Origin: a virus
IMG/VR virus record: IMGVR_UViG_3300010885_017644
Coordinates: 1-38,524 of that record
DNA length: 38,524 bases
Reading direction: 5' to 3' (one strand)
The notes under the pieces are model-generated. The model searched no databases. It saw nothing but the letters and a program-made list of their open reading frames with translations, and was not told the DNA's origin. Shown piece by piece: positions 25,781 through 38,399 of the stretch; within the stretch, counting starts at the first letter, position 1; each line of letters starts with the position of its first letter. Position numbers and translations under genes: made by a program.

Positions 25781-25809
25781 CCAAATATTGGGGAAAAGGT
25801 TATTGCAGA

Positions 25810-27673: not shown

Positions 27674-27773
27674 GCTTTTATTTATTCGATAGGTAGACCC
27701 GGTTCCAGGCCTTTTCGAGCCTCAAGACTCCGGTGCGCGCCCTACAACAATTAGGTAAAGATACCCAGTCTAC

Positions 27774-27866
27774 TTATACTAGAAAAAAGATAAAGATACA
27801 AGACAACACTACAGCCAGACCTATAGGCCAGACCCAACTCCATTCTATCTTACAAGTTCTTTTCAT
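27774..27866 (-). CDS. possible 30-aa membrane peptide
   Basis: ATG at 27864-27866 reads MKRTCKIEWSWVWPIGLAVV, then a hydrophobic end (LSCIFIFFLV) and TAA. A GTATATTAG box lies 4 bases upstream (27871-27880), like boxes before other genes. The size makes it tentative, but the charge-then-hydrophobic layout matches other small membrane peptides in the window. Confidence 0.4.
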   Translation of the reverse strand: MKRTCKIEWSWVWPIGLAVVLSCIFIFFLV

Positions 27867-27870
27867 AAGC

Positions 27871-27880
27871 CTAATATACT
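27871..27880 (-). promoter_or_regulatory. -10-like box AGTATATTAG
   Basis: Minus-strand AGTATATTAGGCTTAT. The core GTATATTAG recurs at 29391, 33671 and 34114. Confidence 0.4.
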
Positions 27881-27898
27881 CTATACCCGGTAACCGGG

Positions 27899-28126
27899 AC
27901 TAGGGAGTACCTGGCAACCTGACCAGCCTCCAGACCCTATAGACCCAGACACGGGACTAGGGAGTAACCCCGAACCCTGAGCCAGACCCCAGACTCGCCT
28001 GACCCCGATGGGACTAGGGAGTGCCGGGCAGCCAGCCGCCCTTGGGGTACCTGCTCGGCCTGCTTAAACACTAGGGAGTACGGTGACCCCCTCGGCCTCG
28101 CCGGAAACTCTGGACTCCAGGGTCTC
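27899..28126 (+). repeat. 57-bp-period array of ACTAGGGAGT
   Basis: Four exact ACTAGGGAGT copies start at 27899, 27956, 28013 and 28070, spaced exactly 57 bases. The first three are preceded by GGG. The 47 bases between copies are GC-rich and differ from unit to unit, so this is not a simple tandem duplication. The region is non-coding in all frames I checked and lies directly upstream of the recombinase gene at 28214. The rest of the 27674-28213 gap holds the tentative 30-aa peptide and GC-rich sequence with short hairpins. Confidence 0.9.
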
Positions 28127-28198
28127 GCGGGGCCGGGGATGCCGAGACTATAGGGACTGGACGGGACATGGGGATCCGCGGAGTCTCGGCAGACCGGG

Positions 28199-28206
28199 TA
28201 TAAATA
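28199..28206 (+). promoter_or_regulatory. T4-type late promoter TATAAATA (recombinase)
   Basis: An exact TATAAATA on the + strand, 7 bases before the recombinase ATG. It is the second exact + strand late box, with 1185. Confidence 0.6.
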
Positions 28207-28213
28207 AGTCTAT

Positions 28214-28882
28214 ATGGAAACACGCGATACACAAGACGGAGCCGAGGATAACAGAGATTACCTTGCGCCCGGCCACGGACCTACTGGCAATCTGGTCTAT
28301 AAGAAAGATGCAGCTCGGTACCTAGGTATAAGCCTTAAGACTCTAGAGCGCTATGTGAAACAGGGTCTGGTCAAGCCCTTTAAGAACGAGGTAAACGGCC
28401 GAACCTACTTTGACCAGCTGGATCTACTAGCCTTACTAGGGAGTAGACTACCCCAAGAACGAGAGGTTGTGCTGTACTGCCGGGCTGCGGGGATTCCGGA
28501 TCAGGGTAAAGCCGGCGTATCCAGCCAGGCCAGACTGCGAGACCAGGTAGACCGCTGTACCGAGTACTGTACCAAGGCTGGGGTCCGGGTCGATCGTATA
28601 ATCCAAGAGATTGGAAAGGGGCACACCCTGAATGGTCGCAGCGGGATTGACCAATTGCTGGATTTAGTGTTCCGAAAGAAGGTATCAATGATCGTGATCG
28701 AGTGCCCGGATCGTCTGGCTCGTTGGGGCATGGGCGAGGTCTTGGAGAGATTCCTGACCTGGCACGGTGTAGAGCTGCATGTTATAAACAAGGGCTGGTC
28801 ACGTGCCGAATTCCGCGAAGAGGTAAAAGAAGATCTTGCGGGAATCCTATTCGAGGCGAAACGCCTGCTAGGAGAAGCTTAA
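28214..28882 (+). CDS. IS607-like HTH serine recombinase, catalytic serine replaced
   Basis: 222 residues. A MerR-type HTH (YKKDAARYLGISLKTLERYV, about 29-48) is followed by a serine-recombinase domain: LYCRAAGIPDQGKAGVSSQ, then the helix LRDQVDRCTEYC, a GKGHTLNGRSGIDQLL segment, and PDRLARWG with the conserved DRLxR arginine. This order is that of IS607-family TnpA. The usual R-V-S-x motif that carries the nucleophile reads R-A-A-G here, so Ser is replaced by Ala and strand cutting should be lost. No tnpB is next to it. It may be a domesticated DNA-binding protein. GC content and codon use differ from the AT-rich genes to the left. Confidence 0.82.
   Translation: METRDTQDGAEDNRDYLAPGHGPTGNLVYKKDAARYLGISLKTLERYVKQGLVKPFKNEVNGRTYFDQLDLLALLGSRLPQEREVVLYCRAAGIPDQGKAGVSSQARLRDQVDRCTEYCTKAGVRVDRIIQEIGKGHTLNGRSGIDQLLDLVFRKKVSMIVIECPDRLARWGMGEVLERFLTWHGVELHVINKGWSRAEFREEVKEDLAGILFEAKRLLGEA
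28435..28444 (+). repeat. ACTAGGGAGT copy inside recombinase gene
   Basis: An exact copy within the recombinase coding sequence, in the frame encoding L-G-S. It is the only copy inside a + strand gene. Confidence 0.85.
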
Positions 28883-29253
28883 CTAAATATTGTTGGATTA
28901 CGGCGGCCCCATTCTCTGAGCAAGACGCCAGCCTGGGAGTTTGCCTCGTTCTCTATGTCAGATCCGTCGGCACCGTCCAAGACCTTGCCGCTGTCGCGCT
29001 GATGATGGTGTACCAATTCATGGGCCAAGGTTCTGTACCAGTCTGCACGGACTCTGGTTCCGCGAAGAACCCAGATCTCATTGGACTGTGGATTAAAGTA
29101 TCCCATTGACTTATTTAACATAGCCTCCCTATGGTCATCAGAAATGTGGATCGTTGGGGTGCTGGTCCAGCCTAACTGCTGACGACAGAAGTGTACGAAC
29201 TCCTCTAATTCGGAGTCTTCCTGCCATTCACGGGATTCTTTAATGTATTTCAT
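28879..29253 (-). CDS. capsid-tagged HEXXH metallopeptidase
   Basis: 124 residues. The start MKYIKESREWQEDSELEE is tag-like (MKYIK, with L-E-E at 16-18). The zinc motif HELVH is at 78-82, then a candidate third ligand in IENEANSQAG (about Glu103). It is convergent with the recombinase gene; the two stop codons overlap in TTAA. It is a second minimal metallopeptidase, here with a packaging tag, so a virion-delivered protease is possible. The leader contains a structured element and an AATAAATAA stretch. Confidence 0.78.
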   Translation of the reverse strand: MKYIKESREWQEDSELEEFVHFCRQQLGWTSTPTIHISDDHREAMLNKSMGYFNPQSNEIWVLRGTRVRADWYRTLAHELVHHHQRDSGKVLDGADGSDIENEANSQAGVLLREWGRRNPTIFS

Positions 29254-29318
29254 ATAGTTATTTATTCATGGAGTTTTCAGCGAACCCCAGAAATGTGACC
29301 TTTGTACCTGTCTCGGGG

Positions 29319-29367
29319 TTTCCCCCAGCACGGGGCGAGCTCCAGAGCCCATGCCAGGTCGGCACGG
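29319..29367 (-). ncRNA. structured leader element, copy A
   Basis: A 49-base GC-rich element that matches 38081-38130 at about 37 of 50 aligned positions. On the minus strand it forms a 7-bp stem CCGTGCC / GGCATGG (one G-U pair) with a 5-base loop that differs between copies; on the + strand the same pair would be an A-C mismatch, so the minus strand is the likely RNA strand. A second hairpin with CTGG at its loop and a shared CTGGGGGAA follow. It lies in the leader of the metallopeptidase gene, downstream of a GTATATTAG box. Confidence 0.5.
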
Positions 29368-29390
29368 CCCCGGGGCTTTGGGCGCCTTAT

Positions 29391-29400
29391 TCTAATATAC
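29391..29400 (-). promoter_or_regulatory. -10-like box GTATATTAG before leader element A
   Basis: Minus-strand GTATATTAGAATAAGG, upstream of element A and the metallopeptidase gene, giving a leader of roughly 130 bases. Confidence 0.4.
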
Positions 29401-29449
29401 CATTTTGCCCATCATTCGGCAATTAAATAATAAAAAAATAAGATACGTT

Positions 29450-29584
29450 ATGGCTAAACAGATTATTGCAAGACTCCACCTTGCTAAACCCAAAGTAAAG
29501 AAACCCGGCGTACACGCCAAGTCCGGTTCCTCTCGCAACAAGAGATCCAAGAACTACAAGAAGCCCAACGTTGGACAGGGCTAA
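29450..29584 (+). CDS. small very basic protein, 44 aa
   Basis: ATG at 29450; it reads MAKQIIARLHLAKPKVKKPG, then VHAKSGSSRNKRSKNYKKPN and VGQG. About one third of residues are Lys or Arg. The PGVHAKS...SKNYKK...GQG pattern looks like a conserved small basic protein of Bacteroidota and their phages, perhaps RNA- or DNA-binding, but this is from memory of the pattern and not checked. It ends at a terminator. Confidence 0.65.
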   Translation: MAKQIIARLHLAKPKVKKPGVHAKSGSSRNKRSKNYKKPNVGQG

Positions 29585-29594
29585 ACCCAAAAAA

Positions 29595-29615
29595 GGGACT
29601 CCACTAGGGAGTCCC
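29595..29615. terminator. terminator containing an ACTAGGGAGT copy
   Basis: An 8-bp perfect stem GGGACTCC / GGAGTCCC with loop ACTAG, preceded by an A run (a T tract on the minus strand). It ends the convergent DUF932-like transcript and perhaps the small basic gene. The loop and the right arm form ACTAGGGAGT at 29603-29612, so this copy may be chance or shared use. Confidence 0.85.
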
Positions 29616-29641
29616 TCTCTTCATTAACCAATTAACCTTTC

Positions 29642-30760
29642 CTAGATAGCAGCTAGGTCTGCGTGTTGTAGATCCCAAGTCTTAGCGAATAGATTTCCAC
29701 CGTCGACCTTGAAACGTTTTGAGTTCTCGAAGTTGAAGATCGACTGGTGACTTCCAATCCATGTCAACTCGTTAACTACATCCCATACAGTAGCATCAGT
29801 CTTGATAAACTTCTTCTGTGCGTCTGTTAGGGTCAATGGGTTGTGGCCCTTACGGAAGATACGTTTTGTTGCCGCATCGTATTCTGGAAAGAACTGTTGT
29901 TCTGCTGCCTTGATTAGGTGAGCCTTCATGTCAGGATTTTCTTCCTTGATCTGGCCAGTTACTGAGTACATCGCTCGCTCTAATTCTCCGTAGCTTGCAC
30001 GTGTTGTCATCGCTGTTTCCAATCTGTCTTGGAAAGTTCTTGGTACAAATCCTACCTTTGCCCAACCGTTCATGCTCGTTAAGAGTTCGCGGAAAGCGTC
30101 TTGGCCTTTACCAAACTCGAATGCTGTATTCAAGTTTCTGGCTACTGCACCGTTTGCGCAGCTTAGGCGTAAGAAGAAGTCGTCTACTCTTGAGTTGATA
30201 TTGGAGTTTACTAGGGAGATCCCGAAGCGGAACACCTCGTCCTTACCGATCTTCTCAAAGCCTACTTGACTGCCGTGGATGAGGTTGATACTTAAGCCGT
30301 TCTTGCCGCCATGGTCGATTGACTCTACATGCATGTCGGGGATCTCGTTAAGGATCGTCTCCGCCGTGTTGAATAGGGTCTCATTGCTTAGACGATGGTA
30401 ACGATCTGCCTTTACGATATCGCCAACTTCGCGTTTGTCCGCATCGCCGATAAGTAAGAACTCTTTTGAACCGTCACGCGTTTCTGAATAGGCTTTAACT
30501 GCCTGTAATAGTTTGGTCGCGACAGCTCTGTCCTCGTTCTTGTCCATGCGGCTAAGCAACGTGGATTGGATATTGACTGCCTGTCCCAAGCGGTTGAAGA
30601 ACCTGTTAGAGACTGGGATACGTGCGCCATCGATAAAGATGCATCCGTTCTTGATTGAACTATCGTCGATCTGAATATCAGATAACTTAACTCGCTTTGT
30701 TAGCGGATCCTGTCCTGCGAGATTTGCTTTGCTTTCGCTAAATTGACTTTGATTAATCAT
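29642..30760 (-). CDS. DUF932-like phage protein
   Basis: 372 residues. The layout, with GARIPVSNRFFNRLGQAVNI, DADKREVGDIVKADRYHRLS, FGISLVNSNINSRVDDFFLR and CANGAVARNLNTAFEF, fits the DUF932 / phage-plasmid TIGR03299-like family of unknown function. It lies directly downstream of the RadA/RecA-like gene (28 bases apart), so a role in recombination or replication is suggested by context only. The codons for SLVN at about 30210 hold a near-copy of the ACTAGGGAGT motif. Confidence 0.7.
   Translation of the reverse strand: MINQSQFSESKANLAGQDPLTKRVKLSDIQIDDSSIKNGCIFIDGARIPVSNRFFNRLGQAVNIQSTLLSRMDKNEDRAVATKLLQAVKAYSETRDGSKEFLLIGDADKREVGDIVKADRYHRLSNETLFNTAETILNEIPDMHVESIDHGGKNGLSINLIHGSQVGFEKIGKDEVFRFGISLVNSNINSRVDDFFLRLSCANGAVARNLNTAFEFGKGQDAFRELLTSMNGWAKVGFVPRTFQDRLETAMTTRASYGELERAMYSVTGQIKEENPDMKAHLIKAAEQQFFPEYDAATKRIFRKGHNPLTLTDAQKKFIKTDATVWDVVNELTWIGSHQSIFNFENSKRFKVDGGNLFAKTWDLQHADLAAI
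30210..30219 (+). repeat. ACTAGGGAGA, one-mismatch copy in DUF932-like gene
   Basis: Nine of ten bases match. On the minus strand it is read as ISLVN. The flank TTT before it matches the copy at 30982. Confidence 0.6.
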
Positions 30761-30787
30761 GTGGTATATGGTTTTTTGGTTTATATT

Positions 30788-30793
30788 ATTATA
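30788..30793 (-). promoter_or_regulatory. -10-like box (GTATAATA class)
   Basis: Minus-strand TTTAGTATAATAATAT, 28 bases before the DUF932-like start and overlapping the stop of the ATPase gene. Confidence 0.5.
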
Positions 30794-31889
30794 CTAAATT
30801 GTCTGTAGCTTCGTCCGTTTGCGGAGCAATAGTTTCCTCTTCAGTTGGGGTCTTAACTGATAAGAAGAGATCGTTGAACTTGTGTTCCAACTCCTGACGA
30901 CGAGCTGACTCCTCATCCGCAAGTTTAGCAACCTCGGTCTCCTGTCTCCATGAGGTCTCGTCCCACTTGACTTCACCGTTTACTAGGGAGTAGTACAAGC
31001 GCTTACCGACTAGGCTTCCTCCACGTCTGTTCTTTGAGAACTCTACGAAACGTCTGCCTGCCTCGTCGAACTTGATCTCCATCATGGATGTGGTCGCATG
31101 TTTAAGATAGGTAGATCCTACATACTGTCCGCCTTTCGTCATGTGCTGAATTGCAAAGATTGTTTTGCCGTGTTTGTCAGCAGCTTCGATGATGAGGTTG
31201 GTCAGCCATGTCTGGGCTCTCGTAGATTTCCAGCCTAGGATATCCGCAAGCTTTACAATAATATCCTGATGAGAGTCAATCAAGATTACGTCGTGATCCC
31301 CTTTGATTGTGTCTTCCAACACCTTGTCGAAACGACCCATCACGTAGTCCATAACCAATAAGGTCGGAACGTTCGCAATGATTGGGGTTTTTTGGAAGTA
31401 GAAGTAGAGATCGTTACGAGTCATCTCACTTGAGATGTAGAGGATCTTGGCCTCGGGCTGTACTCGCTTGATCTTAGAGATAAGATCCAATGTCACGGTT
31501 GATTTACCTACGCCCGACTCGCCGATTACAATATTAGCAGTTCCCGAAAAGATACCACCGTCTTCCGTATGGTCCGAGAAAAGCTTGTCAATAATACCGC
31601 CCGTCTTGTAGGCTTTAAACTCTGGGAAATCCATCTCACCGATCTCGATAATCTCGGCCACCATGTCTTGGGGTACCTCGATGGTAGGGGTTACTAGGGA
31701 GTCCGTCGTGATACCGGCTCTGAGCTTCTTTATTACTCCATTGAAGAGACCGTAACTCACATTGGCATCTGCACCTGTGGTCATGAACTCTGTGTAGAGC
31801 TGCTGTACTGTCTTGTCCGTTGGGACCTCGCCGTTATGGCTTTGTTCGAAGAAGGTTCGAACCGTAAGTTCTTTTTTTCCGATCTGCAT
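30789..31889 (-). CDS. RadA/RecA-like ATPase
   Basis: 366 residues. Walker A GESGVGKST (123-131) and Walker B VILIDS (201-206) lie in a RecA-type core. ILYISSEMTRND, LIDSHQD and the later EFSKNRRGG are laid out as in RadA/Sms (YVSGEES, DSIQ, KNR), but the RadA zinc finger and Lon-like tail are absent. An N-terminal helical region (1-115) is extra. Probably a recombination or branch-migration ATPase of this phage. Two ACTAGGGAGT copies fall in its codons, both read as SLV. An operator-like repeat pair lies upstream. Confidence 0.85.
   Translation of the reverse strand: MQIGKKELTVRTFFEQSHNGEVPTDKTVQQLYTEFMTTGADANVSYGLFNGVIKKLRAGITTDSLVTPTIEVPQDMVAEIIEIGEMDFPEFKAYKTGGIIDKLFSDHTEDGGIFSGTANIVIGESGVGKSTVTLDLISKIKRVQPEAKILYISSEMTRNDLYFYFQKTPIIANVPTLLVMDYVMGRFDKVLEDTIKGDHDVILIDSHQDIIVKLADILGWKSTRAQTWLTNLIIEAADKHGKTIFAIQHMTKGGQYVGSTYLKHATTSMMEIKFDEAGRRFVEFSKNRRGGSLVGKRLYYSLVNGEVKWDETSWRQETEVAKLADEESARRQELEHKFNDLFLSVKTPTEEETIAPQTDEATDNLV
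30982..30991 (+). repeat. ACTAGGGAGT copy in ATPase gene (3' half)
   Basis: An exact copy; the minus strand reads YYSLVNG. Confidence 0.85.
31693..31702 (+). repeat. ACTAGGGAGT copy in ATPase gene (5' part)
   Basis: An exact copy with the extended flank GTTACTAGGGAGTCC, shared with 36369 and 38390. The minus strand reads DSLVTP. Confidence 0.88.
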
Positions 31890-31918
31890 ATTTTATTTGG
31901 GGTTAATTGGTTTATAAT

Positions 31919-31924
31919 ATTATA
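31919..31924 (-). promoter_or_regulatory. -10-like box of ATPase gene
   Basis: Minus-strand TGTAGTATAATATTATAAAC, 30 bases before the start at 31889. Confidence 0.55.
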
Positions 31925-31926
31925 CT

Positions 31927-31987
31927 ACAGTTCTGCAGTTTTGGCTTCAGTTCTTCAGTTTTTTATTATTTATTTAGACTGAAGAAC
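31927..31987 (-). promoter_or_regulatory. operator-like direct repeats upstream of ATPase promoter
   Basis: CAGTTCTGCAG (31928-31938) and CAGTTCTTCAG (31948-31958) are direct repeats spaced 20 bases, about two helical turns, immediately upstream of the -10 box. An inverted copy CTGAAGAAC lies at 31979-31987. The layout suits a dimeric regulator binding on one face of the DNA. Confidence 0.5.
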
Positions 31988-31994
31988 CGGCCGG

Positions 31995-32004
31995 ACTAGG
32001 GAGT
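31995..32004 (+). repeat. ACTAGGGAGT copy just after a stop codon
   Basis: An exact copy beginning 1 base past the stop of the minus-strand gene 32006-32179, in an intergenic GC-rich patch (CCGGCCGG-like). Confidence 0.88.
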
Positions 32005-32005
32005 A

Positions 32006-32179
32006 CTACTCATCAAAGTACAGGAACTCAACCGCTTCCGCGCATTCAAACATTCCAAGGTCTTCGAACATGGTGTAGGCTCCGTCAGCATCGCTCATCG
32101 CGACCACCTCCATTGCCTGGTACACGGCGTCCTCGCCGAACTGGGCTATTGCTGCATCTATTTTTTCTTGTGTTACCAT
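32006..32179 (-). CDS. small acidic protein, 57 aa
   Basis: Reads MVTQEKIDAAIAQFGEDAVY and ends EFLYFDE. Asp/Glu-rich with a helix-turn-helix-like pattern of short helices (DADGAYTMFEDLGMFECAEA). Not recognised. It resembles the small acidic protein at 38150-38344 in style. Neighbour genes on the right are tightly packed. Confidence 0.65.
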   Translation of the reverse strand: MVTQEKIDAAIAQFGEDAVYQAMEVVAMSDADGAYTMFEDLGMFECAEAVEFLYFDE

Positions 32180-32184
32180 AGTTT

Positions 32185-32322
32185 CTATTTTATAATGATT
32201 GTAAATTCTGAACCGAAAGCCATTTGATATTCGCGCTCCAACTCTCTGGCCTCTTTAAGAGTTTTAGCGGTGTCAACTACCACGCGACCGTAGCGCGATA
32301 CTGCTATGATTTTATATGTCAT
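32185..32322 (-). CDS. hypothetical protein, 45 aa
   Basis: Reads MTYKIIAVSRYGRVVVDTAK, then LKEARELEREYQMAFGSEFT and IIIK. A beta-helix-beta pattern. Not recognised. It starts 2 bases after the stop of the 32325-32738 gene. Confidence 0.65.
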   Translation of the reverse strand: MTYKIIAVSRYGRVVVDTAKTLKEARELEREYQMAFGSEFTIIIK

Positions 32323-32324
32323 GA

Positions 32325-32738
32325 TTAGATTGATTTTAAAAGTTGAGTAAATGTTTGAGCTTCAGCAAGTGGCTTATCAAAACCAGTTGCTCGTGAAAAT
32401 GCTTCGGCCTTGCCGTTGTGGCCAGATTTACCGGTTACCCAGAAGAGTACCTCACCGGATTCGCGATCGCAGATTGAGAAGGAATCGTATAGCGGTCCGC
32501 TCATTGGGCAATTGTTCTTGAAGAACACATAGGTCTTTGTACAATCGATAGCACGACCTGATTCGCGAAGCGCATTGACGAACTTGATTACTTGACCCTG
32601 TAGTTTCTTTGCTCTCATGGGTAGAGATGAGTCCTTACAGAACCAATCATAGAAGTCATGGCAATGTGGATAAAGAGCTGATTGGCCTTGGGCCCATGCG
32701 TACATTTGGTCTGCGATTGATACTTGATTTTCTGTCAT
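32325..32738 (-). CDS. hypothetical protein, 137 aa
   Basis: A soluble protein with several Cys and His residues (YPHCHDFYDWFCKD, IDCTKTYVFFKNNCPM, SICDRESGEVLFWV). It may bind metal, but no known family motif is seen. It heads a three-gene unit under the promoter module at 32774-32842. Confidence 0.7.
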   Translation of the reverse strand: MTENQVSIADQMYAWAQGQSALYPHCHDFYDWFCKDSSLPMRAKKLQGQVIKFVNALRESGRAIDCTKTYVFFKNNCPMSGPLYDSFSICDRESGEVLFWVTGKSGHNGKAEAFSRATGFDKPLAEAQTFTQLLKSI

Positions 32739-32773
32739 ACGTTAAAGGTTTAATGGTTTAAGAATTAATTGAT

Positions 32774-32842
32774 ATGTAAATATAATACATTAGTTTGACA
32801 CTAAAAAACTTTTTATGACTTATTTTCAAAAAAGTTATTAAC
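32774..32842 (-). promoter_or_regulatory. early-type promoter module 1
   Basis: Reading the minus strand: GTTAATAAC, TTTTTTGAAAATAA, GTCATAAAAAG, TTTTTTAGTGTCAA, 10 bases, then TATATTTACAT. The last box is one base from the Bacteroidota -7 element TAnnTTTG. Five or six copies of this module occur right of 32.7 kb. It drives 32325-32738. Confidence 0.65.
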
Positions 32843-32851
32843 ATTGGATTG

Positions 32852-32935
32852 TTAATAACTCGCAGAGTCTGAGGCAGGTCGGAGTATACCTCCCGCTTCC
32901 TTGTTCCGAACCGTCCCGTCTAGATTGATTGACAT
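32852..32935 (-). CDS. possible 27-aa peptide gene
   Basis: ATG at 32933-32935; it reads MSINLDGTVRNKEAGGILRP, then ASDSASY and TAA. It fills the gap between two promoter modules and begins right after a TATATTTAC box. The GC-rich sequence unlike its flanks supports a coding or structured role. Tentative. Confidence 0.4.
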   Translation of the reverse strand: MSINLDGTVRNKEAGGILRPASDSASY

Positions 32936-33002
32936 AGTAAATATAATAAAAAACCCTGAATCTAAAAAATCCAGGGTCATTTATTTTCAGGAAAGTTATT
33001 AA
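32936..33002 (-). promoter_or_regulatory. early-type promoter module 2, with terminator inserted
   Basis: Minus strand: GTTAATAACTTTCCTGAAAA, a terminator hairpin (32953-32977), then TTTTTTATTATATTTACT ending at the 27-aa ATG. The hairpin replaces the middle part of the module, so the upstream gene ends and the next unit begins here. Confidence 0.5.
32953..32977 (-). terminator. terminator of 33009-33233 gene
   Basis: Stem ACCCTG / CAGGGT with inner AT pairs, followed on the minus strand by a run of T. Confidence 0.75.
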
Positions 33003-33008
33003 CAATTT

Positions 33009-33233
33009 CTAGTGTTCAGGAATCTCTAATTCTAGGTCTCCGATCTTTACTGTCTTGCCGATGAGGTCTCGACTGCTTGCCGCTTTGGCATGGCCGCGGT
33101 GGTCATGGTAATCAAGGTCTATTTCTTCAGTCGCGTTCGCAAGTAGGTTAAACATCTGTTCCGGTTCTTTTACACAAACCTCCCTGCCGTTTTCATAAAG
33201 GTATAGTCGTACTATCTCGTTCATGGTGGTCAT
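33009..33233 (-). CDS. hypothetical protein, 74 aa
   Basis: A soluble protein with a His/Asp-rich middle (EIDLDYHDHRGHAKAASSRD) and a hydrophobic end (IGKTVKIGDLELEIPEH). An ATG three codons in is also possible. Not recognised. Confidence 0.6.
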   Translation of the reverse strand: MTTMNEIVRLYLYENGREVCVKEPEQMFNLLANATEEIDLDYHDHRGHAKAASSRDLIGKTVKIGDLELEIPEH

Positions 33234-33258
33234 GGGTTTTTTGTTATTTAATAAAAAG

Positions 33259-33278
33259 AAAGGGGTTATAAACCCCTT
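33259..33278. terminator. terminator overlapping the end of 33266-33646
   Basis: AAAGGGGTT / AACCCCTTT palindrome; on the minus strand it is followed by TTCTTTTTAT. Confidence 0.75.
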
Positions 33279-33646
33279 TGCAATATTTCCTTTTCTCTTT
33301 GAGTTAGGGACTCAACTCCCGATCTCGAAATTTTATCAAGGATTTCGTCCACCGTTAAATCCGGTGTTGCAGTTTGCGCTGCCGTTTTGAGTACCGCATT
33401 GATCGCTTGCATCAACGCCTCAGGAAGATTTAGGTTCACCTTAGTTTCTTCCATTAAGAAGAATGTGGCTCCTGTTTCCTTCACATCCTGGGTGATCTCT
33501 TCCTCTGATGATTGAGTATTAAAGACCGACAGGATTGCGCCCGGAATTGGTGCGGCGAATGCGGGTCCTACAATGTGGGGTTTCAACGCTTGTGAAACCG
33601 CTGGGTTCGGAGCTGAGCCGAATCGAACTAAGAATAATTTTTTCAT
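33266..33646 (-). CDS. hypothetical protein with DUF6576-like tail
   Basis: 126 residues. The N-terminal part is unrecognised (FLVRFGSAPNPAVSQALKPH). The last 30 residues (VDEILDKISRSGVESLTQRE) closely resemble the short C-terminal module found after rhomboid proteases and other proteins in Bacteroidota (DILDKI-SG-SLT-EEK), which supports a Bacteroidota host. Function unknown. It is under the module at 33671-33738. Confidence 0.65.
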   Translation of the reverse strand: MKKLFLVRFGSAPNPAVSQALKPHIVGPAFAAPIPGAILSVFNTQSSEEEITQDVKETGATFFLMEETKVNLNLPEALMQAINAVLKTAAQTATPDLTVDEILDKISRSGVESLTQREKEILQRGL

Positions 33647-33670
33647 ATTTGGTTAGATTGATTTATAAAG

Positions 33671-33738
33671 CTAATATACAACAAAACTTTTAAATAAAAA
33701 AACTTTTGATGAATTATTTTCAGAAAAGTTATTAACAA
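33671..33738 (-). promoter_or_regulatory. early-type promoter module 3
   Basis: Minus strand: GTTAATAACTTTTCTGAAAA, then TCATCAAAAGTTTTTTTA, then TTTTGTTGTATATTAGCTT. The upper half matches modules 1 and 5 but the -10 box is GTATATTAG rather than TATATTTAC. The last part is shared with 34114-34122. Confidence 0.55.
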
Positions 33739-33742
33739 AAAA

Positions 33743-33761
33743 GGGAGCCACATGGACTCCC
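33743..33761 (-). terminator. terminator of 33790-34086 gene
   Basis: Stem GGGAG / CTCCC with partial inner pairs, followed on the minus strand by TTTTTTG. Confidence 0.75.
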
Positions 33762-33789
33762 GATCTTGTCAATAAACCAATTTTACCAA

Positions 33790-34086
33790 TTATACCAAAT
33801 GTAGTATCTCAGCTAGAGCGCGATCAGTTACTCGTCGGCTCATACCTCCAATATGCCATTCAATAGTTTCTTCTTTCGAGATGCGACGGTATTCTTTCCA
33901 GTCGTAGATGGTAAATACATCTCCTTCTTCCGTTTCGCAAATCCATTCGAAATTTACTTTATCTTCTCCAGTATTATCTTCAATCGTGGGTTCTCCAAGG
34001 ATTGCGATAAGGTCATTCACTGAACACTTTAATACTGTATCGTGGAACGAGGTTCCGCCTGCACGCTTTTCGGTTTTTCTAGCCAT
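33790..34086 (-). CDS. hypothetical protein, 98 aa
   Basis: A soluble protein with an N-terminal basic start (MARKTEKRAGGTSFHD) and VNDLIAILGEPTIEDN, then WICETEEGDVFTIYDWKEYR and a WHIGG motif. This order resembles small phage proteins of unknown role. A single-gene unit with its own promoter and terminator. Confidence 0.7.
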   Translation of the reverse strand: MARKTEKRAGGTSFHDTVLKCSVNDLIAILGEPTIEDNTGEDKVNFEWICETEEGDVFTIYDWKEYRRISKEETIEWHIGGMSRRVTDRALAEILHLV

Positions 34087-34113
34087 GGTTATTTTTTTAG
34101 TTGGTTGATAAAG

Positions 34114-34122
34114 CTAATATAC
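34114..34122 (-). promoter_or_regulatory. -10-like box GTATATTAG for 34086 gene
   Basis: Minus-strand TTTTTGTTGTATATTAGC, followed by TTTATCAACC; the same stretch appears in module 3. Confidence 0.5.
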
Positions 34123-34150
34123 AACAAAAACCTGATACTGGAAAATCTTT

Positions 34151-34444
34151 TTAAATATTTTTTACAGGTATTTTCTCGATCAAGGCTAGGCTGCCAAGCG
34201 GAGACCACATAGCCTCTTCATAGCTTTCAAACCGGGACCGGTCCCATAGCCAGACCAGACCGTGCTTCTTCCATTCCTCTCGCGCTGCACGCTCTGTCCT
34301 GCTTGCTTCGGCGATCTGCATCTGAAACAAGGCAATTGCATACACGGCTTTAAATGTTCCGCAGACACAGACAGGTTTTTCTTCTTCCCCTACACGAGAG
34401 GTTAGCAACCAGACTTCTTTATTTTTCCGGGTTGGACTAGGCAT
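34151..34444 (-). CDS. hypothetical protein, 97 aa
   Basis: From the ATG at 34442-34444; a start 10 codons earlier is possible but would overlap the 24-aa gene upstream. Helical with many Trp and Glu residues (EVWLLTSRVGEEEKPVCVCG; REEWKKHGLVWLWDRSRF). Not recognised. Confidence 0.6.
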   Translation of the reverse strand: MPSPTRKNKEVWLLTSRVGEEEKPVCVCGTFKAVYAIALFQMQIAEASRTERAAREEWKKHGLVWLWDRSRFESYEEAMWSPLGSLALIEKIPVKNI

Positions 34445-34445
34445 G

Positions 34446-34520
34446 TTAATCTCTTTTTTCTGGTACGAATACACAGTAGATACAGAATGCTACACTTACT
34501 AGGATTGCTATTGCGCACAT
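34446..34520 (-). CDS. possible 24-aa membrane peptide
   Basis: ATG at 34518-34520; it reads MCAIAILVSVAFCIYCVFVP, then EKRD and TAA. A hydrophobic stretch with a charged tail; it stops one base before the next gene starts. Similar small membrane genes lie at 35262-35387 and 27774-27866. Confidence 0.4.
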   Translation of the reverse strand: MCAIAILVSVAFCIYCVFVPEKRD

Positions 34521-34553
34521 GGTTGAATGGATTAAGGGGTTAATAATATTATC

Positions 34554-34802
34554 TTACCCAAGTTCTTCACTTAACTTCTTGAGGTCAGCACATTTCTCGT
34601 ACTGCTCTTTCTTTTCAAAATGCAAGATCATGGTCCAGATAGCCTGTTTCTTTTCTTCCATTGGGGTTCCATCGTGCACGACATCTCTGAATTCGCCGGC
34701 CAGTGCTTCATAGAGTCTGTCCATGAATCCATCGTAATCTGATTCGCGCAGCCGGATAAGTTCCAGCAGGATATCGTTGTATGTTCTGGTTTTCTTTGCC
34801 AT
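34554..34802 (-). CDS. hypothetical protein, 82 aa
   Basis: A helical, charged, soluble protein (TYNDILLELIRLRESDYDGF; EKKEQYEKCADLKKLSEELG). The C-terminal pattern resembles a short coiled coil. Not recognised. An AATAAATAA stretch lies 6 bases upstream (34809-34818). Confidence 0.65.
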   Translation of the reverse strand: MAKKTRTYNDILLELIRLRESDYDGFMDRLYEALAGEFRDVVHDGTPMEEKKQAIWTMILHFEKKEQYEKCADLKKLSEELG

Positions 34803-34877
34803 ATCTTTATTATTTATTCTTGTTTATTTAGAGTCACTCAGCGTGAATCTTAGCTTGTCTATAATATAGTACTAAAA

Positions 34878-34904
34878 AAGGGTCTTCGGAACACCGAGAC
34901 CCTT
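34878..34904 (-). terminator. terminator of 34922-35248 gene
   Basis: Stem AAGGGTC..CGG / CCG.GACCCTT, followed on the minus strand by TTTTTTAG. Confidence 0.8.
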
Positions 34905-34921
34905 AATAATAATTTGGATTA

Positions 34922-35248
34922 CTAGATAAATTGGGTTAGGTAGCCGGTCGGCCAGCCCTCATCGTCCTGTTCAAAGTCCATGTCTGTCTGAATCAGGTCC
35001 GAGTAAATGCTTAGCTTCTCGCGTGGTTCCAGCCCGGCAAAGCAGTTAGAGATTAGGGTATCTACTGATTCGTCTGGTACAAACTCATCGTCCAACCTGA
35101 CTGAACCATCTTCTAACATGAAGATGTCTACTGCTAAGTTCTCTCGCATTATGTCTATTGCATCTGCTGCATTTAACTCTGCAAGGTAAGCGTCTACTTG
35201 TTCGAACGCTTCTTCAATTGGAACTCTTAATAGGTCTGGATTTCTCAT
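34922..35248 (-). CDS. hypothetical acidic protein, 108 aa
   Basis: Soluble, Asp/Glu-rich (MRENLAVDIFMLEDGSVRLD; YSDLIQTDMDFEQDDEGWPT). Not recognised. It follows the 41-aa membrane gene and has its own terminator. Confidence 0.65.
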   Translation of the reverse strand: MRNPDLLRVPIEEAFEQVDAYLAELNAADAIDIMRENLAVDIFMLEDGSVRLDDEFVPDESVDTLISNCFAGLEPREKLSIYSDLIQTDMDFEQDDEGWPTGYLTQFI

Positions 35249-35261
35249 TGTTAAATCTTGG

Positions 35262-35387
35262 TTAGGGTTGATAAAAGAATAGAATACACGTTGCTACTAC
35301 TGCGAGAGCAATGATAATCAATGCTCCATTAATTAGAGAATCTCTTCTCATCATTTTAACTTCTTTTTCTGAAAATTTCTTTGCCAT
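35262..35387 (-). CDS. small one-pass membrane protein, 41 aa
   Basis: ATG at 35385-35387; it reads MAKKFSEKEVKMMRRDS, then a hydrophobic run (LINGALIIIALAVVATCILF) and a short tail. A basic head followed by one membrane segment. Function unknown. Confidence 0.65.
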   Translation of the reverse strand: MAKKFSEKEVKMMRRDSLINGALIIIALAVVATCILFFYQP

Positions 35388-35423
35388 CTTTTTTATATTT
35401 TAATTGATTAATAATTTAGGTAA

Positions 35424-35879
35424 TTAGGCGGCGTTCTTTACGAACGCCTTGTCTGCCCATGTCTTAGCTCCAGCCATCCTATAATTATTCTGACTGTATA
35501 GATTAGTATTAGACCAGTCTTGATTGATGTCGCCCACTTCCATTGCCAGGAACATGTCCGAATCCATTAACTTGATCTTGTTACCTGACCTTGCGAATAC
35601 AGTGATGAAGGTTTCTGATCCTTCTGCTCTGAACTCGATTGTCTGCAACGCGCCTTTTTTAAATCCTCTGAATACATCCATTGCAGAGTTCCAAGACTGT
35701 CTTCCCCAATTTGCTCTAATGCCATGGTCTTCAACGACTGTCATGAAGCCTGCCTGTACTCGAACGATTGCGCGGTATTCGCCTTTACGGCCTTGGATAA
35801 AATCCACTTGGCTGATTCTCTCCGCATTGAAGATTTCAACTGATGGTTTGTAGTCTGGATTAAATTGTTTCTTTTTCAT
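35424..35879 (-). CDS. hypothetical protein, 151 aa
   Basis: A basic N-terminus (MKKKQFNPDYKPSVEIFNAE), then beta-rich segments (YRAIVRVQAGFMTVVEDHGI; SETFITVFARSGNKIKLMDS). It could be a small ssDNA- or RNA-binding-like barrel, but this is a guess. Not recognised. It follows module 4 directly. Confidence 0.65.
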   Translation of the reverse strand: MKKKQFNPDYKPSVEIFNAERISQVDFIQGRKGEYRAIVRVQAGFMTVVEDHGIRANWGRQSWNSAMDVFRGFKKGALQTIEFRAEGSETFITVFARSGNKIKLMDSDMFLAMEVGDINQDWSNTNLYSQNNYRMAGAKTWADKAFVKNAA

Positions 35880-35902
35880 GGTTGATTGATTTGGTTTATA
35901 AT

Positions 35903-35957
35903 AGTAAATATAATACTTATTCTTGACAGTAAAAAACTTTTTATGAATTATTTTTTA
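35903..35957 (-). promoter_or_regulatory. early-type promoter module 4
   Basis: Minus strand: AATTCATAAAAAG, TTTTTTACTGTCAAG, 9 more bases, TATATTTACT. The TGTCA to TATATTTAC distance is 10 bases after TGTCAA, as in modules 1, 5 and 6. Drives 35424-35879. Confidence 0.65.
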
Positions 35958-36263
35958 AAATCTTTCTGAACCTAAATGAGAGCAGGCAGAAGAGTATCTC
36001 TCGAGAAGGTTGCTGCCGGCTAGCAGAAGAAAGCTTGAACCTGCAATTCCACGGATCTTATAATCTTCAGGTACTATAACACTGCCAAGTCTGCTGCCGC
36101 CTGAATCCAGTGTCATAATGAATCTACCTTCTCGAACCACTATGAATTCGGAAGAGAAGCCTTCCATCGTAGAGCCCGACGCAATTTGAGTCCAGCCAAT
36201 TTCTTGACCAGACTCGTTTAAGATTTGGAGGCTTGAACCTCGTTGTATAACATTACCTATCAT
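35955..36263 (-). CDS. hypothetical beta-rich protein, 102 aa
   Basis: Soluble, with repeating beta patterns (IGNVIQRGSSLQILNESGQE; FIVVREGRFIMTLDSGGSRL). Not recognised. It overlaps the 36260-36478 gene by 4 bases, so it is the third gene of the sigma operon. Confidence 0.65.
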   Translation of the reverse strand: MIGNVIQRGSSLQILNESGQEIGWTQIASGSTMEGFSSEFIVVREGRFIMTLDSGGSRLGSVIVPEDYKIRGIAGSSFLLLAGSNLLERYSSACSHLGSERF

Positions 36264-36478
36264 GCTGTTGTCTTTGAATTTTTAATACACTCTTGAAATT
36301 CTTCTTCCGTCAGGTCAGGTATATCCTGAGTTACAAGCTTTAGCAGGGTTGCTGCTTCTATCTCTGTTACTAGGGAGTCCTTATTGACTTTGCCCTTAAA
36401 AGGATCTCCTTCAGAGAATAGAATCTCGACTGCGGTCTCTGCCCAGAAGCGGGCTTCTAATTGAGTTGTCATTATCAT
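36260..36478 (-). CDS. small protein coupled to the sigma factor gene
   Basis: 72 residues (a start two codons in is also possible). Acidic and helical (EARFWAETAVEILFSEGDPF; DIPDLTEEEFQECIKNSKTT). Its start overlaps the sigma stop by 4 bases and its stop overlaps the next start by 4. A sigma-binding role is possible from coupling only. An ACTAGGGAGT copy falls in its codons (KDSLVTE). Confidence 0.65.
   Translation of the reverse strand: MIMTTQLEARFWAETAVEILFSEGDPFKGKVNKDSLVTEIEAATLLKLVTQDIPDLTEEEFQECIKNSKTTA
36369..36378 (+). repeat. ACTAGGGAGT copy in sigma-operon gene
   Basis: An exact copy with the extended flank CTGTTACTAGGGAGTCC, identical over 17 bases to the one at 38390. Read as DSLVTE on the minus strand. 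Confidence 0.88.
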
Positions 36479-37194
36479 ACGCCTACCTCCTTTCTCATTT
36501 TAGCACGAGCAACCTTAAGGGCACGGTTAACTTCGACTGGGGTTTTACCTACTGCATCCGCAACTTCCTTGGTAGAGAGACCGTCTCCAACGAGACCGTA
36601 GAACAACTCGACGATTTGACGTTCAGTTGGTTTAAGAACGTTAAGTACTCTACGGAGTATTCGGGTTTGGTCCTCACTATCGAATGGGTCTTGGAAATCT
36701 TCTCTTAACAAGAGATCGCCTACTGTATCGTCGCCATCCTCGCCGATTGGACGATCCAATTGGATGTTACGCATGTTAATGCTTTCGCCTGCCATCTTAC
36801 GTTTGTAAAGATCGTATTCCTGATTTACTGGAATTCGGACAGTACGACCGACTTCGCAAAGAGCAAGGTTTAATCTCTTACGAATCCAGAACTGAGCGTA
36901 AGTAATAAACTTTACGTCTTTATCTGGGGTAAAACGACGAGCAGCTTCGATAAGACCCGCATTACCTTCTTGGATTAAGTCATCGATGGAAAGACCCATA
37001 CCGATAAACTTGTTTGCAAGAGTAACAACGAACTTAAGATTCGCTTGTACTAATTGATGCATTGCTCGCTCATCTCCTTTCTGGATGCGGACTGCTAATT
37101 GAAGTTCTTCAGCCTTGCTGAGCGGAACTGCTACGGGCGCGATATCTTTGAAATATTGCGGTAGACTTTCTGATGTTTCGAATCTTTTCGACAT
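36475..37194 (-). CDS. primary-type sigma factor, Bacteroidota RpoD-like
   Basis: 239 residues. Region 1.2 (about 10-40), region 2 (45-118: ANLKFVVTLANKFIGMGLSI, DDLIQEGNAGLIEAARRF, KFITYAQFWIRKRL), a short region 3.2-type loop (QLDRPIGEDGDDTVGDLL) and region 4 (LKPTERQIVELFYGLVGDGL, STKEVADAVGKTPVEVNRAL) are all visible. Most of region 3.1 is missing, so the protein is about 45-50 residues shorter than host RpoD. It should direct host RNA polymerase to phage promoters. It is under module 5 and heads a three-gene overlapping operon. Confidence 0.93.
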   Translation of the reverse strand: MSKRFETSESLPQYFKDIAPVAVPLSKAEELQLAVRIQKGDERAMHQLVQANLKFVVTLANKFIGMGLSIDDLIQEGNAGLIEAARRFTPDKDVKFITYAQFWIRKRLNLALCEVGRTVRIPVNQEYDLYKRKMAGESINMRNIQLDRPIGEDGDDTVGDLLLREDFQDPFDSEDQTRILRRVLNVLKPTERQIVELFYGLVGDGLSTKEVADAVGKTPVEVNRALKVARAKMRKEVGV

Positions 37195-37222
37195 AGTTGG
37201 TTTGGTTTAATTGATTATTATA

Positions 37223-37291
37223 ATGTAAATATAAACAAAATTTCTGACAAGTAAAAACTTTTTATGACTTATTTTCAAAAAAGTTATTAAC
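37223..37291 (-). promoter_or_regulatory. early-type promoter module 5 (sigma operon)
   Basis: Minus strand: GTTAATAACTTTTTTGAAAA, TAAGTCATAAAAAG, TTTTTACTTGTCAG, 10 bases, TATATTTACAT. Nearly identical to module 1. Confidence 0.65.
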
Positions 37292-37296
37292 AATTG

Positions 37297-37407
37297 TTAG
37301 TTAACAACTTGACCGCAATCGCAGCATTTTACAAGTTTGATTCCTGAAACGTGGCGAACTGCTACGTAAGTTCTGATGTGTTGGCATTTGGCTGATTGGT
37401 TATTCAT
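37297..37407 (-). CDS. small zinc-knuckle protein, 36 aa
   Basis: ATG at 37405-37407; it reads MNNQSAKCQHIRTYVAVRHV, then SGIKLVKCCDCGQVVN and TAA. CxH near the start and CCDCG near the end form a likely zinc-ribbon. It lies between modules 5 and 6, with its ATG directly after module 6's TATATTTACAT box. Confidence 0.6.
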   Translation of the reverse strand: MNNQSAKCQHIRTYVAVRHVSGIKLVKCCDCGQVVN

Positions 37408-37465
37408 AATGTAAATATAACTATAATACTTGACAGTAAAAAACTTTTTGTGAATTATTTTCAAA
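37408..37465 (-). promoter_or_regulatory. early-type promoter module 6
   Basis: Minus strand: TTTGAAAATAATTCACAAAA, AGTTTTTTACTGTCAAG, 9 more bases, TATATTTACATTATG. The spacing matches modules 1, 4 and 5. The leader before the 36-aa ATG is only a few bases. Confidence 0.6.
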
Positions 37466-37483
37466 TTATTTTATACGCGAAAA

Positions 37484-37503
37484 GGGGTCCAACCACGGAC
37501 CCC
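37484..37503 (-). terminator. terminator of 37530-37811 gene
   Basis: Perfect 7-bp stem GGGGTCC / GGACCCC, followed on the minus strand by CTTTTCG. Confidence 0.75.
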
Positions 37504-37529
37504 AATTCTATCAATCAACCAATAGTATT

Positions 37530-37811
37530 TTAATTTAAGCAGATTCCTGTTTCTCGTAACAGGTTCTCTAATTGTATATCTTCTTCAGACATGCCTGATT
37601 CTCTCTTAACCTGTTTAATACAGAACTGCATAAGCAATCGTTGAAGCTCTTGCGTACTGCGCTCGTCCTGTGTTGCGGCCAATAGGGTTATTAATCCATT
37701 ACCGATTAAGATAAGTTCTGAATCAGATGTCTTGATTCCGCCCGCGATTAGGCTATTCGCCAAGGTCTCTAGCTCGGCTCTTGTTTTTTCTCTAATTTCT
37801 TTCTTATTCAT
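37530..37811 (-). CDS. hypothetical helical protein, 93 aa
   Basis: A soluble, helical, charged protein (KEIREKTRAELETLANSLIA; QELQRLLMQFCIKQVKRESG). Not recognised. Its terminator follows at 37484-37503. Confidence 0.65.
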   Translation of the reverse strand: MNKKEIREKTRAELETLANSLIAGGIKTSDSELILIGNGLITLLAATQDERSTQELQRLLMQFCIKQVKRESGMSEEDIQLENLLRETGICLN

Positions 37812-37839
37812 GGTAGTTGATTATTGATTTAATCTTATA

Positions 37840-38034
37840 TTACTCTTTTCCAAGCGCGATGGCCTTGTTCACTTCATAGATTCTTGACCAGAATTCGTTG
37901 TATTCAAGTTGATTGTCTGGCTTTACAGTTGACTGTACTCTCGCACCGCCGCCATAGGTTAAGTCAATGGGTTCTCCGATCGTTGGATCAATTCCCTGTA
38001 ATTTATAGATTAAGGCCTTAAGTATTTTCTTCAT
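37840..38034 (-). CDS. hypothetical protein, 64 aa
   Basis: Starts MKKILKALIYKLQGIDPTIG and has GGGARVQSTVKPDN. A soluble or peripherally membrane-bound protein. Not recognised. Leader element B lies directly upstream. Confidence 0.6.
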   Translation of the reverse strand: MKKILKALIYKLQGIDPTIGEPIDLTYGGGARVQSTVKPDNQLEYNEFWSRIYEVNKAIALGKE

Positions 38035-38080
38035 AGTTATTAGGTTTTACAGATTAAGTTTGTTTTTTAAGGGTCACGCG

Positions 38081-38130
38081 ATTCCCCCAGTACTACTGCG
38101 TGGTCCAGGACCCATGCCTGGGAGGCACGG
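38081..38130 (-). ncRNA. structured leader element, copy B
   Basis: 50 bases, matching copy A (29319-29367) at about 37 of 50 positions including one 1-base indel. The 7-bp stem with a different 5-base loop is kept, and the second hairpin keeps its CTGG loop. It lies 46 bases upstream of the start at 38034, so it is again in a leader. The frame shift between copies argues against a conserved peptide. Confidence 0.5.
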
Positions 38131-38149
38131 AAATCCAGGACTAGGTCTA

Positions 38150-38344
38150 TTAACAGATTCGATTGGCCACAAAGCCTTGTGCATCGCTTGCGCCATAGTA
38201 TTTCTTGATCGCGGCCGGTGCGGTAGGATTATCCATCAGCCAGCCATCCGCAATATCGAACGCCATTGAATCGTCTATGTCTCCGGCATCGATTGCGCCC
38301 AGTGCAAGCTCTCGTAATTCAGTATCTAATTTTTCTTTTGTCAT
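38150..38344 (-). CDS. small acidic protein, 64 aa
   Basis: Reads MTKEKLDTELRELALGAIDA, then GDIDDSMAFDIADGWLMDNP and KKYYGASDAQGFVANRIC. Asp/Ala-rich and helical, similar in style to 32006-32179. Not recognised. Copy B and a GC-rich gap follow its stop. Confidence 0.65.
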   Translation of the reverse strand: MTKEKLDTELRELALGAIDAGDIDDSMAFDIADGWLMDNPTAPAAIKKYYGASDAQGFVANRIC

Positions 38345-38389
38345 AGGTATTAGTTTTAGGGTTTAGGGTTAGATTTATAATCAACTGTT

Positions 38390-38399
38390 ACTAGGGAGT
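38390..38399 (+). repeat. ACTAGGGAGT copy after a stop codon
   Basis: An exact copy with the flank CTGTTACTAGGGAGTCC, 4 bases past the stop of the right-edge gene. It is the rightmost copy in the window. Confidence 0.88.

Follow-up and report, generated by a model that had tools for sequence, protein, structure and literature searches.

Why does one ten-base word recur on a single strand, in one part of a phage sequence, close to the gene of a transposase-like protein? The question arises from a 38,524-nucleotide stretch of DNA, the IMG/VR virus record IMGVR_UViG_3300010885_017644 (hereafter the window), in which the word ACTAGGGAGT is found in a short tandem array, inside the adjoining gene, and at scattered sites over the following 10 kb. 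The adjoining gene encodes a protein that we call dTnpA, a label coined in this analysis because the protein has alanine at the catalytic site, an IS607-type fold, and direct repeats beside its gene; no published name was found for the sites. A plausible reading is that phages have taken over a one-time transposase, together with its sites, as a control or organising system.

In the window, 11 exact copies and one single-mismatch copy (ACTAGGGAGA, at 30210) spanned positions 27899–38399, all on the + strand, and each of the twelve coordinates listed in the sequence-only reading proved exact. The exact strand count was 11 forward and 0 reverse, and a reversed-pattern control gave 0 and 0. With up to one mismatch allowed, 13 matches were found, against a mean of 1.92 (largest, 6) in shuffled sequences, and none of 100 shuffles reached 13. 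The thirteenth match, ACTAGGCAGT at 25809, lies to the left of the array and is probably a chance occurrence; the earlier statement that no copies lie to the left is right for exact copies. The 15-mer GTTACTAGGGAGTCC, which had been noticed around three dispersed copies, was recovered at 31690, 36366, and 38387.

The whole-genome strand count proposed in the sequence-only reading was made in a near-identical 253-kb contig (G001; 253,137 bp) and a 271-kb relative (G003; 271,290 bp). G001 has 12 forward copies and no reverse ones, all within 173,699–184,736 (11.0 kb). In G003 there are 10 forward copies, again with none in reverse, all within 117,957–126,144 (8.2 kb); equal strand use and random spread were clearly not what either genome showed. 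The additional copy in G001 falls at the window-equivalent position 38927, past the window end. In a scan of all 10-mers in G001, ACTAGGGAGT was the most numerous of those confined to a single strand. Outside the site region, there were no exact copies, and single-mismatch words occurred at chance level on both strands (3 in 240 kb of G001 and 4 in 261 kb of G003). The final 100 bases of G003 turn up again 31 bases after the contig begins, and G002–G005, four contigs of 270–271 kb with identical site spacings, begin at different places, so that they look like complete circularly permuted genomes.

These counts bear directly on the suggestion that the word is a host Chi sequence, an FtsK-orienting polar sequence (KOPS), or another oriented guide. 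Its G-rich, oriented character would suit such a role, but the copies are limited to 8–11 kb of genomes of 253 and 271 kb, whereas Chi would be over-represented genome-wide and KOPS would point towards dif on two chromosome arms rather than lying on one strand in one block. Nor was the word enriched in a 2.5-Mb Bacteroidetes metagenome bin that contains a relative, and which may not be the true host: 2 exact copies lay outside the phage contig, against approximately 4 expected from 4^10 arithmetic. Both candidates were rejected, and a host guide sequence is hardly credible here.

The same pattern was observed across related phages. In a first set, 15 of 20 related records held the word, with 133 exact copies that occupied a single strand within each record (near-identical records included), and the reversed pattern was absent from all 20. 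Taken over the whole group, 19 related records besides G001 and G003, several of them near-copies, have their exact copies confined to one strand of each phage contig; one short contig has a single inverted copy. Three relatives were found through alignment of dTnpA: G021 with 4 exact copies, G022 with 5, and G023 (C291, the phage contig of the Bacteroidetes bin) with 8 exact copies and 6 of ACTAGGGAGA, in each case on one strand. A scan of DNA alone, for two copies 40–60 bp apart, returned 21 stretches, including seven new contigs, four of which belong to the group. G026, G027, and G029 contain 4, 12, and 2 exact copies, respectively, each on one strand, those of G027 being spread over 18 kb; G030 contains five exact copies that face one way and a sixth that is inverted, and no other inverted exact copy was seen among the contigs of this group. 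The other three (G024, G025, and G028) lack dTnpA and its neighbour genes and look like chance tandem repeats, G028 giving only a weak sigma-factor match (32–36%). The group probably consists of large phages of Bacteroidetes, with roughly ten to fifteen same-facing copies in one stretch of the genome. Eight contigs end inside or near the site block (G000, G007, G008, G010, G012, G016, G021, and G022), which could reflect microdiversity, G+C content, selection of contigs by locus, or real DNA ends.

To describe the site, we used 11 records, from which duplicate 60-bp contexts were removed to leave 98 unique contexts; near-copies (G002, G004, G005, G006, G016, G017, and G020) and the three chance matches were excluded from the logo, spacing, and pair counts. 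The site regions of these records contained 77 exact sites, 16 ACTAGGGAGA, 6 ACTACGGAGT, and 1 ACTAGAGAGT among sites with up to one mismatch, and a single antisense near-match in 122 kb. The last base (T or A) was the only commonly variable position. The preceding base was G or T in 95 of the 98 contexts, and the following base was A or C in 83. Because words with two mismatches sit near background (29 sense versus 19 antisense in 10 of the 11 records), the word is nearly digital, close to all-or-none. The exact word was also sought in the literature, and the matches listed were mostly nucleosome and chromatin papers, which we take as coincidence.

The word is kept at synonymous positions within conserved genes. 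In an alignment of the RadA/RecA-like gene from eight genomes, the two sites were invariant in all ten bases in every genome. This gene has 46 invariant Leu, Ser, and Arg residues, seven of which have a constant codon, and four of those seven are site codons. In the neighbouring gene for a conserved 372-residue (aa) protein, the variant site was present in five of eight orthologues, and the other three encode Ser-Leu-Val through different codons. Overall, 50 of 107 sites lay in open reading frames (ORFs), according to simple longest-ORF calls, under which some array copies in G008, G009, G011, and G023 fall in probably spurious or extended ORFs. Such retention implies strong selection for a DNA word inside phage coding sequence. 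The binding-site family that the sequence-only reading had named as one possibility thus gains support from a word kept while its surroundings diverge, from its retention at synonymous positions, and from the helix-turn-helix gene next to it.

That gene encodes dTnpA. In all eight records covering both, the array lay just upstream of a rightward dTnpA (G001, G003, G008, G009, G011, G021, G022, and G023). The scan of DNA alone recovered two contigs with divergent dTnpAs (44–49% identical) and with sites around or near the gene: in G027, the sites surround dTnpA, and in G029, the array lies 2 kb beyond it. Three long related contigs (G013, G014, and G015) had neither the word nor dTnpA. In G018, an intact IS607-type TnpA (YARVSS) was accompanied by 0 copies of the word, which is thus not a feature of the IS607 family as a whole. 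Given the adjacent array, the co-occurrence, and the domain type, dTnpA is probably the protein that binds the sites.

The domain order of dTnpA, an N-terminal MerR-type helix-turn-helix followed by a C-terminal serine-recombinase domain, is that of IS607-family transposases. At the position of the serine in YxRVS, which we take to be catalytic from the resolvase family, all eight dTnpAs have alanine and all five IS607-type TnpAs have serine; the eight dTnpAs also have in common a wing motif, KNxxNxR, that was not found in the five IS607-type proteins. Four dTnpAs scored 102.4, 95.8, 72.6, and 92.4 bits against NCBIfam NF033518, all under the curated cut-off of 110 bits. The ratio of nonsynonymous to synonymous substitution (dN/dS) was 0.14 for G011/G023 and 0.25 for G003/G011; only these two had dS below 1, and the remaining pairs were more saturated. 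dTnpA is therefore a dead enzyme under constraint. A structure model matched IS607 catalytic domains (6dgc: Z, 12.5; root-mean-square deviation, 2.3 over 99 residues), and its helix-turn-helix matched BldC, with RacA helix-turn-helix structures also among the matches.

The family match might be taken to mean that an IS607-like element still transposes, or exchanges cassettes, at these sites. This is scarcely tenable, since the catalytic serine is lost in all eight proteins, gene order is largely kept, and sites lie in conserved genes. No tnpB adjoins dTnpA in the window, to which the scan for it was confined, and the next gene is convergent and encodes a 124-aa metallopeptidase-like protein. 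No DNA-level relatives of window positions 27700–29400 were found in annotated phages, and among the matches listed for TerL, the nearest named isolates were only approximately 33% alike. Protein matches to dTnpA came from 21 records, all at <60% identity; in each of the four that were examined, another transposase gene comes after the matched one and is annotated as TnpB in two cases, so that these four look like live IS607-type elements.

The features of the window are listed in Table 1.

Table 1. Sites of the word and neighbouring genes in the window.
Feature	Position	Strand	Remarks
Four exact sites in tandem (27899, 27956, 28013, 28070)	27899–28079	+	57 bp apart each; spacers unrelated, GC-rich
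TATAAATA, late-promoter-like box directly 5' of the dTnpA start codon	28199–28206	+	
dTnpA: MerR-type helix-turn-helix plus IS607-type serine-recombinase domain, catalytic Ser replaced by Ala (YCRAA)	28214–28882	+	
Exact site within dTnpA, where it encodes LLGSR	28435–28444	+	Same gene position in 9 of 11 records; absent from G009 and G029
Metallopeptidase-like gene, convergent with dTnpA, late-like AATAAATA before it	28879–29253	-	Weak matches
Exact site within terminator-like hairpin 3' of the 372-aa gene	29603–29612	+	
372-aa conserved protein, no family match, hosts variant site	29642–30760	-	71–73% identical in relatives
Variant site ACTAGGGAGA inside the 372-aa gene	30210–30219	+	5 of 8 orthologues
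RadA/RecA-like P-loop ATPase, hosts two conserved sites	30789–31889	-	TIGR00416 E 2.8e-12, under cut-off
Exact site, 3' part of the RadA/RecA-like ATPase gene	30982–30991	+	All ten bases invariant across the 8 genomes
Exact site, 5' part of the RadA/RecA-like ATPase gene	31693–31702	+	Kept in 8 of 8 genomes; protein variable there, with gaps
Exact intergenic site	31995–32004	+	1 bp from stop codon of right-hand gene
Exact site inside a 72-aa gene	36369–36378	+	Matching position in G003 and G007
Sigma-70-type factor within the site block	36475–37194	-	Query used to find relatives
Exact intergenic site	38390–38399	+	4 bp from a stop codon

In the relatives, the array has 2–5 tandem copies at 56–58 bp. 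When the short spacings of all records were considered, including some dispersed pairs, 30 of 34 were 56–58 bp and the remaining four were 63 bp. This arrangement of one array beside sites dispersed over 8–18 kb, inside and between genes alike, raises the possibility that dTnpA is mainly architectural, bridging the array and the dispersed sites into a compact domain or tethering the locus, with transcription affected secondarily. RacA tethers in such a way in Bacillus, through its chromosomal sites. The dimeric recombinase fold has been kept in dTnpA, RacA structures are among the model matches, and the NCBIfam RacA model gave a weak match to the window dTnpA (E 0.00039, far under the cut-off). 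In G027 (L137/L138), five of 15 site spacings, counted with one-mismatch variants, were 461–463 bp, which hints at preferred loops, and two were 57 bp. On the other hand, no helical phasing of dispersed sites above the null was seen across genomes, and bridging alone gives no reason for a single orientation. Partition by a ParA system was rejected because the ParA-type ATPase domain PF13614 was absent from both G001 and G003 at E 0.01; ParM and TubZ were not searched for. We consider a primarily architectural role unlikely, although it is the chief rival to the explanation favoured below.

Strict orientation and a near-digital sequence are properties of Ter and Chi, and the word could accordingly control replication or recombination, as a polar, Ter-like fork barrier or as oriented sites near an origin. 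The 500-bp bin at the array had 58–63% G+C in all seven records, against means of 38–39% in the two whole genomes, which counts in favour of this reading. Nevertheless, no clear switch in GC skew was found at the array, and GC skew gave no origin; such a role is improbable.

The site block consists mostly of leftward genes, and the order of genes around the sites is largely kept in relatives. In leftward transcripts, the word reads ACUCCCUAGU, and its very exact sequence and single orientation relative to nearly all of these genes could point to an element that acts in RNA, by antitermination or by antisense pairing with an array transcript. One copy even forms part of a terminator-like hairpin. 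However, for dTnpA, which runs rightward, the strand carrying the array and the in-gene copy is the sense strand, the flanks have no conserved hairpin, and no Rfam match reached the cut-off in the window. Terminator-like sites in the site region were no commoner than in shuffles. A hairpin made of the flanks and the site (GGGACT-AGGG-AGTCCC) fitted some intergenic copies only, the three preceding bases varying between G and T, and no RNA structure was accepted. An RNA-level element is thus quite improbable.

The sequence ATAAATA, which we liken to the T4 late promoter, was strongly enriched before ORFs: it was present in the 80 bp before 60 ORFs, versus 93 occurrences, in G001 and before 58, versus 96, in G003. 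An ATAAATA box preceded the dTnpA start in nine of ten genomes, and it is rather probable that dTnpA is made late in infection. The view that the phages are T4-like further draws on a topoisomerase A-type gene, the sigma factor, and a sub-threshold gp16-like match beside TerL. The array lies at the border between the site block, which is early/middle-looking, and left-hand genes, some of them with late-like boxes.

A protein with a helix-turn-helix, a late-like box before its gene, and tandem oriented sites could instead be a small terminase at a packaging start (pac), and the packaging-motor chains 7lwr and 7lw0 were among the helix-turn-helix chains aligned with the model, at a middling Z of 6.7–6.8. 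However, TerL lies 64–70 kb away in the three genomes checked, and dispersed sites inside genes are not needed for packaging. The gene just upstream of TerL itself gave a gp16-like match in G001, below the cut-off (E 2.6e-5), and none in G003. A pac function is very improbable.

The position of the sites relative to genes was examined for the 34 intergenic dispersed sites between leftward ORFs, leaving out three array rows of G009 and sites not between two minus-strand ORFs. Of these, 26 were ≤30 bp from the upstream stop codon and one was ≤30 bp from the downstream start. Uniform placement would put 14.2 of the 34 near a stop, and 0 of 20,000 runs reached 26. When the 60 bp before starts were barred, the expectation rose to 23.2 of 34 (P 0.12; P 0.18 for 32 sites, with two G026 sites excluded). 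Nearness to stop codons was rejected as proof of terminator function because it was not significant once promoter space was barred. The sites avoid promoters and are not operators of the classical kind that overlie a promoter.

Our favoured explanation, which we put forward tentatively, is that these are the sites of an exapted dead IS607 TnpA that acts as an oriented roadblock or insulator of transcription. The recognition site would be ACTAGGGAG(T/A), oriented, preceded by G or T and in most cases followed by A or C, and would be read in its asymmetry by the MerR-type winged helix-turn-helix, so that every bound dTnpA would face one way. The recombinase domain may have been retained as a dimerising module. 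dTnpA, probably produced late, would occupy the array, where it may control its own expression, as well as the dispersed sites of the mostly leftward, early/middle-looking block. There it could form an oriented roadblock or insulator between and inside transcription units, possibly aided by bridging of the dispersed sites to the array. The roadblock is put first by analogy with the stoperators of phage L5, and a transcription block is, on that analogy, a possible outcome. It fits the orientation of the sites relative to leftward genes, their avoidance of promoters, and the location of the array at the block border. Some of these facts would also follow from bridging, from a fork barrier, or from an RNA element, and they do not decide among the four. 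More speculatively, and rather doubtfully, the locus might form a polar cis-acting nucleoprotein domain over 8–18 kb, in which the array nucleates, the one-way sites join, and the early block (or its replication) is switched as a unit late in infection.

Several observations weigh against the favoured explanation. The 4.5 kb of G030 contain two sites spaced by 58 bp, and five sites in all that face one way plus one inverted site, yet no dTnpA was found there. G007 (252 kb), G010, and G026 likewise have sites but lack dTnpA, although each of these contigs stops within or close to the region. Confidence in the structure model is low, with a mean predicted local distance difference test (pLDDT) score of 66. 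The 56–58-bp spacing of the array is unlike the helically phased adjacent repeats at IS607 ends, and the site within dTnpA faces the transcription of dTnpA the opposite way. In the two whole genomes, sites are missing from every leftward block but this one. ATAAATA occurred within 50 bp of 2 of 42 site-block ORFs, compared with 107 of 549 elsewhere (Fisher 0.013 pooled), a weak depletion that is not significant in either genome singly (0.09 and 0.21). Finally, the stop-codon bias is accounted for by avoidance of approximately 60 bp of promoter space and does not by itself prove a roadblock.

Other repeated elements were observed in and around the block. In the G001 site block (window approximately 32–38 kb), AT-rich words of the type AGTTATTAAC and its neighbours occurred often beside a site, with 8 plus copies versus 1 minus in the genome and 6 within 6.2 kb; they are perhaps part of early/middle promoters. 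A GC-rich leader-like element, consisting of a hairpin (CCGUGCC...GGCAUGGG) and a second stem, was located on the minus strand at window positions 29285–29385 and 38048–38148, and also in G003, G009, and G027. A pattern scan of seven genomes gave six copies in four; they share a consensus fold in which 4 of 17 pairs were changed on both sides in some sequence, and no Rfam match exceeded the cut-off. In G009, one site lies inside this element. Many ORFs at window positions 7852–29253, and also in G003, have MK.(L/I)K.(F/Y)E.W-like N-termini, which we assume to resemble T4 capsid-targeting sequences, and may encode a large set of internal head proteins. A 12–13-kb stretch of G003 is very repetitive; CCAGAAGAAC-type words occur there up to approximately 100 times, with hardly any on the opposite strand, and the stretch probably encodes a repeat protein.

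Among known systems, RacA and its ram sites, which anchor the bacterial chromosome, likewise pair a MerR-type domain with sites scattered about a single region of the chromosome. In contrast to what is proposed for dTnpA, RacA binds DNA in the form of a symmetric dimer, according to excerpts of PMC5859096. The same excerpts describe the Streptomyces protein BldC, the MerR-type winged helix of which reads short (9-bp) direct repeats with polarity, a likeness to dTnpA; BldC differs in being a cellular regulator without a recombinase domain that acts on adjacent 9-bp repeats. With the IS607 family (IS1535, IS607, and ISC1926), dTnpA shares domain order, fold, and short direct repeats beside tnpA. 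Excerpts of PMC6188088 state that the motifs bound by IS607 TnpA are short direct repeats; two models are put forward there, and in one of them each dimer joins two DNAs. In dTnpA, by contrast, the catalytic serine is gone, a few residues are inserted after it, and no tnpB is adjacent in the window, and its sites are spaced 56–58 bp apart in the array and dispersed over 8–18 kb of unrelated genes.

The stoperators of Cluster A mycobacteriophages resemble the present sites in being numerous, asymmetric, and mostly in one orientation relative to transcription, and reversal of an L5 site abolishes its effect (excerpts of PMC9283540 and PMC6550527). The exceptions to orientation in our phages are the site within dTnpA and the one inverted site of G030. 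The L5 binder belongs to another fold family, and its sites occur genome-wide in short intergenic gaps and promoters, whereas those described here lie in one block and also in genes. In addition, the present phages look T4-like and are not known to be temperate.

Searches of the literature on IS607 TnpA, stoperators, domesticated or inactive serine recombinases, BldC/MerR, RacA, the exaptation of IS607, and IS607 in T4-like phages gave no dead TnpA with dispersed phage sites among the matches listed. Exapted transposases and oriented multi-site regulators are each known, and their combination appears to be new. The sites constitute a natural, sequence-stringent, oriented family with one candidate binder. 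A single small protein and a site of 10 bp would thus suffice to ask directly why some DNA sites need a fixed direction, be it for a roadblock, a loop, or a fork barrier. A close precedent on the transposon side is TldR, in which relatives of TnpB, the product of the other gene of such transposons, have been exapted as phage transcription factors (excerpts of PMC13418256). TldR is RNA-guided, with no helix-turn-helix on repeated sites; dTnpA, if our reading is true, would be the TnpA counterpart of this recent exaptation into phage regulators.

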